Notes under the pieces: model-generated
The model's input: the letters and a program-made list of their open reading frames with translations, nothing else
Databases searched by the model: none
What the model was told of the DNA's origin: nothing
Program-made: the position numbers and the translations under genes
Shown: piece after piece, positions 39,663 to 41,771 of the stretch
Position numbering within the stretch: the first letter of the stretch is position 1
Layout: every line of letters starts with the position of its first letter
Assembly (NCBI GenBank): GCA_017854535.1
Contig: JAFMHL010000021.1
Coordinates: 1 to 64,000 of the forward strand
Direction of reading: 5' to 3'
DNA: 64,000 nucleotides
From: Nitratireductor sp.
GTDB taxonomy: Bacteria > Pseudomonadota > Alphaproteobacteria > Rhizobiales > Rhizobiaceae

Positions 39663-39677
39663 GTTCTTGCTTTGTTC
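39663..39677 (+). promoter_or_regulatory. LexA (SOS) box candidate GTTC-N7-GTTC
   Basis: GTTCTTGCTTTGTTC, exact match to the alphaproteobacterial LexA consensus, 19 nt before ATG 39697. Confidence 0.6.
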
Positions 39678-39696: not shown

Positions 39697-40917
39697 ATGT
39701 TCATAGACACAGTGAGTCTTTTTAGCGAGGCCAATATGGGTATTTCAATTGCAGTAGATCATCGTTCGGTTCGTTCTGATTTGTCAGGCATGAACAGACT
39801 TGCCCATGATGGGTTTATGGCCAAGTCCGAACTTGGGGCAAAAGCCGATCAGATTGCTGATTTGCGCCGGCGTGGTCGTGCAGCGACGATTAACCCGTCA
39901 GGTCGCTTTGAACCCATCAGCCGCCATGTATTTGACGATGGATGGCAAACCTTAGATGAATTGCCTCCCTTCAAGACCGAGGTCTATGAAGAAAAGCCGA
40001 AGACCATCATAACCCGCAACGCCTCGCCTGATATTTCCTTTGATCGTTCGATCAATCCTTATCGCGGCTGTGAGCATGGCTGCGTCTATTGTTTCGCCCG
40101 CCCTACCCATTCTTATATGGGGCTTTCCTCTGGGCTTGATTTTGAATCCAAGCTTTTTGCCAAAAGCGGTATTGGTCGTCTTTTGGAAGCGGAACTTTCG
40201 AAAAAAGGCTATGAGCCACGCACCATTGCTATTGGGACAAATACTGATCCGTATCAGCCAATTGAAAAAGATCGCCGGATCATGCGCGATATTCTTGAGG
40301 TATTGGAGAAGGCCAACCACCCTGTTGGTATCGTAACCAAATCAGCTTTGGTGATACGCGACATCGATATTCTTTCCCGCATGGCTGCCAAAGGTCTGGT
40401 GAAAGTTGCCCTGTCCATCACCACGCTTGATCGAAAACTGGCTAGAGCCATGGAACCCCGTGCTGCCACCCCTTCTTTGCGGTTGAAGGCCATTCACGAA
40501 TTGTCCGAAGCAGGTATTCCGACCTCAGTGATGGTTGCTCCGGTCATTCCTGCCATGACGGATCATGAGTTGGAACATATTCTCGATTCAGCTGCTGGTG
40601 CAGGCGCCAAAGAGGCGGGCTATATACTTTTGCGATTGCCTGCAGAAGTCAGCCCGCTGTTTCGTGACTGGTTACTGCAACATTATCCTGACCGCTATCG
40701 TCATGTGATGAATGTGCTTCGCTCTATGCGCGGCGGCAAGGACTATGATGCTGAATGGGGCAAGCGTATGAAAGGAAAAGGACCGTATGCGATCCAGATT
40801 GGCAGACGCTTTGAATTGGCTGCCAAACGTTGCGGGCTAAACGAACGTCGTTTGTCCCTTAGAACTGATTTATTTGAAGCGCCGGAGGGAGCAGAGAAAC
40901 AGTTGGCGCTTTTTTGA
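39697..40917 (+). CDS. PA0069-family radical SAM protein (COG1533 SplB-like)
   Basis: SINPYRGCEHGCVYCFARPTHSYMGLSSGLDFESKLFAK (CxxxCxxC) and IAIGTNTDPYQPIEK; start uncertain (39697 or 39736). Confidence 0.92.
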   Translation: MFIDTVSLFSEANMGISIAVDHRSVRSDLSGMNRLAHDGFMAKSELGAKADQIADLRRRGRAATINPSGRFEPISRHVFDDGWQTLDELPPFKTEVYEEKPKTIITRNASPDISFDRSINPYRGCEHGCVYCFARPTHSYMGLSSGLDFESKLFAKSGIGRLLEAELSKKGYEPRTIAIGTNTDPYQPIEKDRRIMRDILEVLEKANHPVGIVTKSALVIRDIDILSRMAAKGLVKVALSITTLDRKLARAMEPRAATPSLRLKAIHELSEAGIPTSVMVAPVIPAMTDHELEHILDSAAGAGAKEAGYILLRLPAEVSPLFRDWLLQHYPDRYRHVMNVLRSMRGGKDYDAEWGKRMKGKGPYAIQIGRRFELAAKRCGLNERRLSLRTDLFEAPEGAEKQLALF

Positions 40918-41099
40918 GAGCAAACTGAATACATTTGAGATGCAACATCTGTTGTGAAAACCTAATTCCGGCTTCCCCGCCGGTTTAAACCAATCCTGGT
41001 TGCTGCCGCACAGATCTTTTGAAGGAGGTTCCCCACTTCTTTTCAAGAGGAACAGGATTGGGACTTGAAGAGAATCGGTGTTCAGGCAAACATTGCCGC

Positions 41100-41771
41100 A
41101 TGTCCCCAAAGCCTGTCACCGATTCTCTCCTCTTTTTATCTCCCGATGAGAAAGAGCCACATTTTCTTTTTGAGCAACGTCTCATTGATAAAGGCGCAAG
41201 AACTGTTGCTGGCGTGGATGAGGCAGGCCGTGGTCCATTGGCTGGGCCAGTTGTTGCTGCGGCTGTGATCCTGGATCCAAACAATCTTCCTATTGGTTTG
41301 AACGATTCCAAAAAACTGACAGAAAAGAAGCGCAATTTTCTCTTTGATGAAATATGCAAAAAGGCCCACGCCATCAGTTGGCATTCAGCATCAGCCCAGC
41401 GCGTGGATCAGATCAATATTTTGCAGGCGAGCCTGGAGGCAATGGCAATCTCTGTCGTCAGTCTATCTTTGCCCTGCGATGCCGCTCTGTTTGATGGGCG
41501 TGATGTGCCCCTTGATTGTCGTCATTTCGGAACAGCCATAATCAAGGGTGACGCCAAGTCTCTATCTATCGCTGCAGCATCCATCATTGCAAAAGTGCTG
41601 CGCGATACAATTATGGTTCAGATGGACAGACATTACCCCGAATATGGTTTTGCAGGTCACAAAGGATATGGTGCAAAGTCTCATATGGCAGCCATTGCGG
41701 CCCATGGCCCATCACCGCTTCATAGAATGTCTTTTTCACCCATGAAAGATATTGGGGCAGATCAAGTTTGA
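41100..41771 (+). CDS. rnhB: ribonuclease HII
   Basis: TVAGVDEAGRGPLAGPVVAAAVILD, LNDSKKLTEKKR, HYPEYGFAGHKGYGAKSHM; ATG 41100 preferred over TTG 41019. Confidence 0.93.
   Translation: MSPKPVTDSLLFLSPDEKEPHFLFEQRLIDKGARTVAGVDEAGRGPLAGPVVAAAVILDPNNLPIGLNDSKKLTEKKRNFLFDEICKKAHAISWHSASAQRVDQINILQASLEAMAISVVSLSLPCDAALFDGRDVPLDCRHFGTAIIKGDAKSLSIAAASIIAKVLRDTIMVQMDRHYPEYGFAGHKGYGAKSHMAAIAAHGPSPLHRMSFSPMKDIGADQV

Follow-up and report, generated by a model that had tools for sequence, protein, structure and literature searches.

The locus considered here lies in a stretch of 64,000 nucleotides from a Nitratireductor sp. (contig JAFMHL010000021.1), to which we refer as the window, and consists of a gene for a radical-SAM protein that is preceded by a candidate LexA operator and followed by rnhB (Table 1). 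The assignment of the protein to the PA0069 family, already made in an earlier note on this DNA, is well founded: the NF033668 model (rSAM_PA0069) gives 570 bits over model positions 1-348, the cut-off being 360 bits, and an alignment of 44 orthologues has C112, C116 and C119 of the cluster motif invariant. Of the 77 relatives examined (L118-L197), 75 likewise have rnhB downstream in the same orientation. Two or more copies or fragments of PA0069-family genes per genome occur in G222, G477 and G327, and Pseudomonas phages such as PAE1 (hits H45-H60) encode a distant radical-SAM relative, at 24% identity and E values of about 7e-6 to 8e-6, which is named 'DNA repair photolyase'.

Table 1 Features of the PA0069-family locus in the window
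Feature	Positions	Strand	Basis or remark
Predicted LexA operator GTTC-TTGCTTT-GTTC	39663..39677	+	Exact match and conservation in orthologues
Putative -35 element TTGCTT	39667..39672	+	TTG conserved within the box, 17 nt ahead of the -10
Putative -10 element TAGGAA	39690..39695	+	TAGGAA in close relatives, TAnnnT class-wide
ATG of the earlier gene model	39697..39699	+	Abuts the -10; very probably unusable as start codon
Shine-Dalgarno-like GAGG	39727..39730	+	5 nt ahead of ATG 39736
PA0069-family radical-SAM protein, likely 393 aa	39736..40917 (including stop)	+	NF033668, PF04055; start from promoter geometry
CEHGCVYC radical-SAM [4Fe-4S] motif, residues 112-119	40069..40092	+	Three Cys invariant in 44 orthologues
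C-terminal QLALF (residues 389-393), putative docking peptide for the beta clamp	40900..40914	+	Conserved in orthologues
rnhB (RNase HII)	41100..41771	+	PF01351; ORF opens at 41019, later start estimated

The box itself, GTTCTTGCTTTGTTC, is the sole exact GTTCN7GTTC in the window, and the earlier description of it as an exact alphaproteobacterial LexA pattern is borne out. By itself, such a match in a single window is not significant, and it is conservation that gives it significance. Shuffled windows contained a mean of 1.68 exact sites each, with one or more in 78 of 100 shuffles, and in the 3.53 Mb assembly we counted 93 exact sites against 179 for a reversed-motif control, i.e. there is no bulk enrichment of GTTCN7GTTC in the organism's own assembly. 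Since these genome-wide counts are at chance level, they are not usable as evidence for an operator.

Conservation in front of orthologues, which had been suggested as a check, is extensive. Of 110 close relatives, 105 have an exact box upstream of the orthologue, in almost every case GTTCTTGNNNTGTTC, and the five exceptions all retain a box with one mismatch at that place (GTAC-TTGYTTT-GTTC in four genomes of the same genus, GTTC-TTGTTTT-GTTT in the remaining one). The GTAC first half-site is found in four of six own-genus relatives (L099, L103, L104 and L113; the comparison covered all but the sixth, G002), still leaves the TTG of the putative -35 element in place, and may mean that SOS control is weakened in this sublineage; the same change from GTTC to GTAC is seen in L230, a genome from another family in the class-wide sample. 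In that broader sample, the exact box is present in the expected stretch in 75 of 80 alphaproteobacterial genomes, whereas 59 control motifs, in which the half-site was permuted or the spacer length changed, were found in 0.9 of these genomes on average and in no more than 4. In a version with 81 loci, which counts one genome twice, 76 exact sites fall within the 25.6 kb of expected stretch as compared to 2 in 159 kb elsewhere. The first 69 genomes represent 49 families by manual count, 65 of them with an exact box, and sequence outside the box is not conserved class-wide. The gene is associated with a GTTC box in Paracoccus ferrooxidans, Azospirillum brasilense and Sinorhizobium sp. K101, among others; in Methylobacterium bullatum (L391) the box stands ahead of the preceding reading frame, which is of the glyoxalase/VOC type as judged by eye, and this arrangement suggests that the frame and the PA0069-family gene form an operon there. 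As it stands, the LexA operator looks near-universal among the sampled Alphaproteobacteria that possess the gene, and the gene looks like a core component of their damage response.

Outside the class the operator is of a different kind. The GTTC box is absent from the expected stretch in all 28 family members from elsewhere in the phylum, and 20 of these have an exact CTGT-N8-ACAG in that stretch, nearly always 210-290 nt ahead of the cluster motif and nowhere else in 28 kb. CTGT-N8-ACAG is the LexA operator of Beta- and Gammaproteobacteria. One further member carries TTAGCAATAATACTA, which is of the TTAG-N6-TACTA type that occurs in xanthomonads. Legionella adelaidensis has the gene with none of the tested operators, and these are also absent in L315, a non-alphaproteobacterial member in which the DNA immediately ahead of the gene contains a long inverted repeat (TGATCAATATAG...CTATATTGATCA), perhaps a site for another regulator. 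Two actinobacterial relatives were included as well: in Nonomuraea (L392), GAACTGCTGTTC, of the GAAC-N4-GTTC type, is located shortly ahead of the gene, and the Tsukamurella relative (L390), annotated as Rv2578c family, has TCGAACGAGATGTTCGA, an imperfect palindrome whose halves are 5 nt apart. The use of different operators in different lineages, each of a known LexA type, implies selection for LexA control and would otherwise be hard to explain.

The genome of the window also contains LexA and its classical targets with the same operator. Two overlapping exact boxes precede lexA (PF01726 and PF00717, TIGR00498), and single exact boxes are found ahead of recA (PF00154), ssb (PF00436; uvrA lies at a greater distance on the opposite side), dnaE (PF07733) and an imuA-like gene, the ImuA match being weak and below cut-off. 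The box of the latter, GTTCTTGTTTTGTTC, differs by one base from the one studied here. The proposed scan for such sites at lexA, recA and imuA thus gave the expected picture. Other boxes in this genome (upstream of DUF3108, GFA and GST genes, in the ddl region, and within genes) have no link to repair and are probably due to chance. A benchmark with recA loci of relatives, in which an exact box was detected at 9 of 23 anchored loci, with anchoring that failed or possibly slipped on some of them, was set aside due to this unreliable anchoring pattern and the presence of reduced genomes in the sample. Based on the conservation of the site and the company in which it occurs, we consider it very likely that LexA uses the box as its operator and represses the gene until DNA damage lifts the repression.

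An alignment of the loci anchored at the box makes it possible to place the promoter. It reveals the TTG inside the box, a gap of 17 nt, and then TAGGAA in close relatives or TAnnnT class-wide, from which we infer that the operator overlaps the -35 element of the gene's promoter. The assignment is made because of this conservation and not from a generic scan: a scan for consensus promoters does not list it, the -10 hexamer TAGGAA being non-consensus. This geometry has consequences for the gene model. The earlier note had put the start codon at ATG 39697, at 19 nt from the box; the distance is correct, but with the -10 element where it is, this ATG would lie ahead of the expected transcription start and cannot serve, so that its use as start codon is very probably wrong. 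The ATG at 39736, with its Shine-Dalgarno-like sequence, is more likely the true start. In 54 of 74 class-wide loci (from L199-L267 and L324-L335) an in-frame ATG occurs 21-27 nt after the box, most commonly at 24-25 nt, which suggests leaderless transcripts of the gene outside the window's relatives.

The enzymatic identity of the protein deserves separate attention, as it had been described as SplB-like. This description holds as a statement of kinship. The AlphaFold model of the protein, which is of moderate quality (pLDDT 76.4), has spore photoproduct lyase (4fhf) as its best fold match in the PDB (E 3.8e-7, TM 0.49-0.56), with peptide and cofactor maturases among the weaker structural matches; PDB searches by sequence gave no match with the single sequence and weak matches only with a profile. 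It does not hold as a statement of enzyme identity. The radical pathway of spore photoproduct lyase requires Cys141, the hydrogen atom donor in the Bacillus subtilis enzyme, and Tyr99 (PMC5368176). Among the 44 orthologues there is no conserved fourth cysteine that could be the counterpart of C141, the best other cysteine column being occupied in 13 of 44, and the position of Tyr99, as assigned by motif reading and not by structure superposition, is Phe in 37 of 44 sequences, including the window protein. Furthermore, the spore photoproduct lyase model TIGR03886 finds no match in the organism's own genome, and among the 61 genomes searched, i.e. this one and relatives, none has a protein above the cut-off. 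The name spore photoproduct lyase was rejected on these grounds.

A feature that points more directly to the place where the enzyme may act is found at its C-terminus. The window protein ends in ...EKQLALF, and in the alignment of 44 orthologues the Gln of this tail is invariant and L392 nearly so, following a variable linker. A pentapeptide Q[L/M/I]x[L/M][F/L/Y/W] is present at or near the C-terminus in 158 of 168 alphaproteobacterial proteins, and four more of these end in QLSLI, QLMLI or QMSFL. Related terminal pentapeptides (QMSLF, QINLF, QLSLF, QGSLF etc.) occur in all 16 members from outside the class, out of 20, that had a readable tail; the Legionella tail is QLDLF, and the two actinobacterial relatives have QESLF and QLRLL. 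The tail region is of low confidence in the AlphaFold model and is probably flexible and exposed. The consensus by which replication and repair proteins of bacteria bind the beta sliding clamp is QL(S/D)LF (PMC9690074). Thus, it is probable that the PA0069-family protein is a clamp-binding protein. In a limited search, which is no proof of novelty, no literature report was found of a clamp motif in the PA0069 family or in any radical-SAM enzyme.

If these elements are put together, the following scheme can be envisaged. LexA bound to both GTTC half-sites would cover the -35 element and block RNA polymerase. Upon damage, RecA assembled on single-stranded DNA would trigger self-cleavage of LexA, and the gene would be switched on together with recA, lexA and other SOS genes. 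The QLALF tail would then dock the radical-SAM enzyme, a member of the SplB-like clade, on the beta sliding clamp and bring it to replication forks, where it could chemically reverse or modify a DNA lesion that blocks replication. The sequences directly show the box with its conservation and promoter geometry, the different operator outside the class, the radical-SAM and C-terminal motifs and the want of a conserved lyase cysteine; that LexA binds, that the gene is induced, that the protein docks on the clamp and acts on DNA, and on which lesion, is deduced. Points that weigh against the scheme are the chance-level motif counts in the genome, the GTAC half-site of the own-genus relatives, the non-consensus -10 element, the moderate quality of the structure model and the Legionella gene with none of the operators. 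The combined picture, a radical-SAM DNA repair enzyme that is induced in the SOS response and recruited by the clamp, is one that we hold to be likely, if slightly less so than its parts. A DNA-directed repair role as such is again probable. The proposal that SOS control of this gene points to a role in DNA damage gains strength from the boxes at lexA, recA, ssb and dnaE, from the class-wide conservation, and from the operator switch outside the class. A more far-reaching view, which we put forward tentatively and would rate at somewhat below an even chance, is that the family constitutes a phylum-wide class of SOS-induced, clamp-riding radical-SAM repair enzymes that act on a replication-blocking lesion other than the spore photoproduct, such as another intrastrand or interstrand crosslink, by light-independent direct reversal at the fork.

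Other explanations deserve consideration. The protein could be a true spore photoproduct lyase with 5-thyminyl-5,6-dihydrothymine as its substrate, in which case the regulation would amount to SOS-controlled 'photoreactivation'. The carriers of the PA0069-family gene encountered here are not known to form spores, which counts against such an activity, as do the lack of a conserved fourth cysteine, the predominance of Phe at the Tyr99 position and the failure of any relative to reach the TIGR03886 cut-off. The spore photoproduct is moreover described as a lesion of spores (PMC4929162), so that in spite of the nearest solved fold being 4fhf and the use of the name splB for the gene (PMC3323433), we regard a true lyase as very unlikely. 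It is less improbable, but still unlikely, that the gene is indeed under LexA control and that the substrate is a protein or a tRNA needed under genotoxic stress, with the tail serving some other contact. Radical-SAM enzymes have many substrates, and the maturases among the weaker fold matches would fit such a role; on the other hand, the enzyme with the closest fold acts in DNA repair, and a clamp-type pentapeptide is conserved at the C-terminus over several classes.

The remaining possibility, that the box is a chance match without function, could be argued from its frequency, since about 1.7 copies of GTTCN7GTTC are expected per window and the motif is no commoner than chance in a single genome. 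It can hardly account for the large excess over the controls in the class-wide sample, for the lack of class-wide conservation beyond the box, or for the presence of a different LexA operator at the gene in other classes, and we regard it as highly implausible. The preferred reading of an SOS-induced repair enzyme that works at the clamp is of importance in several respects. The clamp motif leads to a concrete claim on the work site of the enzyme, namely on DNA at the replication clamp. In view of the missing conserved catalytic cysteine, the names SplB and photolyase are misleading. Finally, the gene is widespread, and the combination of LexA control and a clamp motif turns its role into a defined question, i.e. 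which lesion is the target.

Pseudomonas PA0069 and Mycobacterium tuberculosis Rv2578c reportedly figure in published lists of LexA targets. A comparative-genomics study predicted that LexA regulates a 'splB' gene in Alpha- and Betaproteobacteria (Sanchez-Alberola et al. 2012; PMC3323433); it dealt with species with several chromosomes, did not see the trait in the Gammaproteobacteria studied there and used the term 'photoreactivation'. Since none of the 61 genomes has a protein above the TIGR03886 cut-off, the 'splB' of that study is very probably the PA0069-family gene. SplB proteins of COG1533 were later noted to be SOS-regulated in several species and to occur in Bacteroidetes (2021; PMC8565304), and the LexA targets of the damage response that ChIP-seq and RNA-seq with mitomycin C identified in Streptomyces venezuelae include a radical SAM protein (PMC9380542). 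The idea of LexA control is thus not new, the prediction of 2012 having come first; what the present analysis adds is how widely the box is conserved, how the promoter is laid out, the correction of the start codon, the case against the lyase label, and the clamp motif.

It is instructive to compare the PA0069 family with known systems. The 'splB' of the 2012 LexA regulon has the same operator, occurs in the same class and very probably belongs to the same family as the window gene; as compared to that work, conservation was tested here class-wide, and CTGT-N8-ACAG was found in other classes. SplB has the CxxxCxxC radical-SAM motif in common with the PA0069 family and is its nearest solved fold, whereas PA0069-family proteins lack a conserved hydrogen-donating cysteine, mostly have Phe instead of Tyr99, and possess a clamp-type tail at the C-terminus. 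The Rv2578c family of Actinomycetota is related as well, the window protein scoring 224 bits with the NF038135 model, under the cut-off of 430 bits; clamp-like tails are present in the two actinobacterial relatives, but the operator type is different. With the beta-clamp-binding proteins the family shares the pattern of the C-terminal pentapeptide, clamp binding by the family itself being predicted. A related association is found in archaea, where SplB-like proteins are encoded beside NreB and other DNA crosslinks have been proposed as their targets (PMC4929162). There, too, a SplB-like protein is connected to sliding-clamp-associated repair factors, by genomic linkage, but the clamp motif is carried by the neighbouring Nre protein, whereas in the PA0069 family it is part of the radical-SAM enzyme itself.
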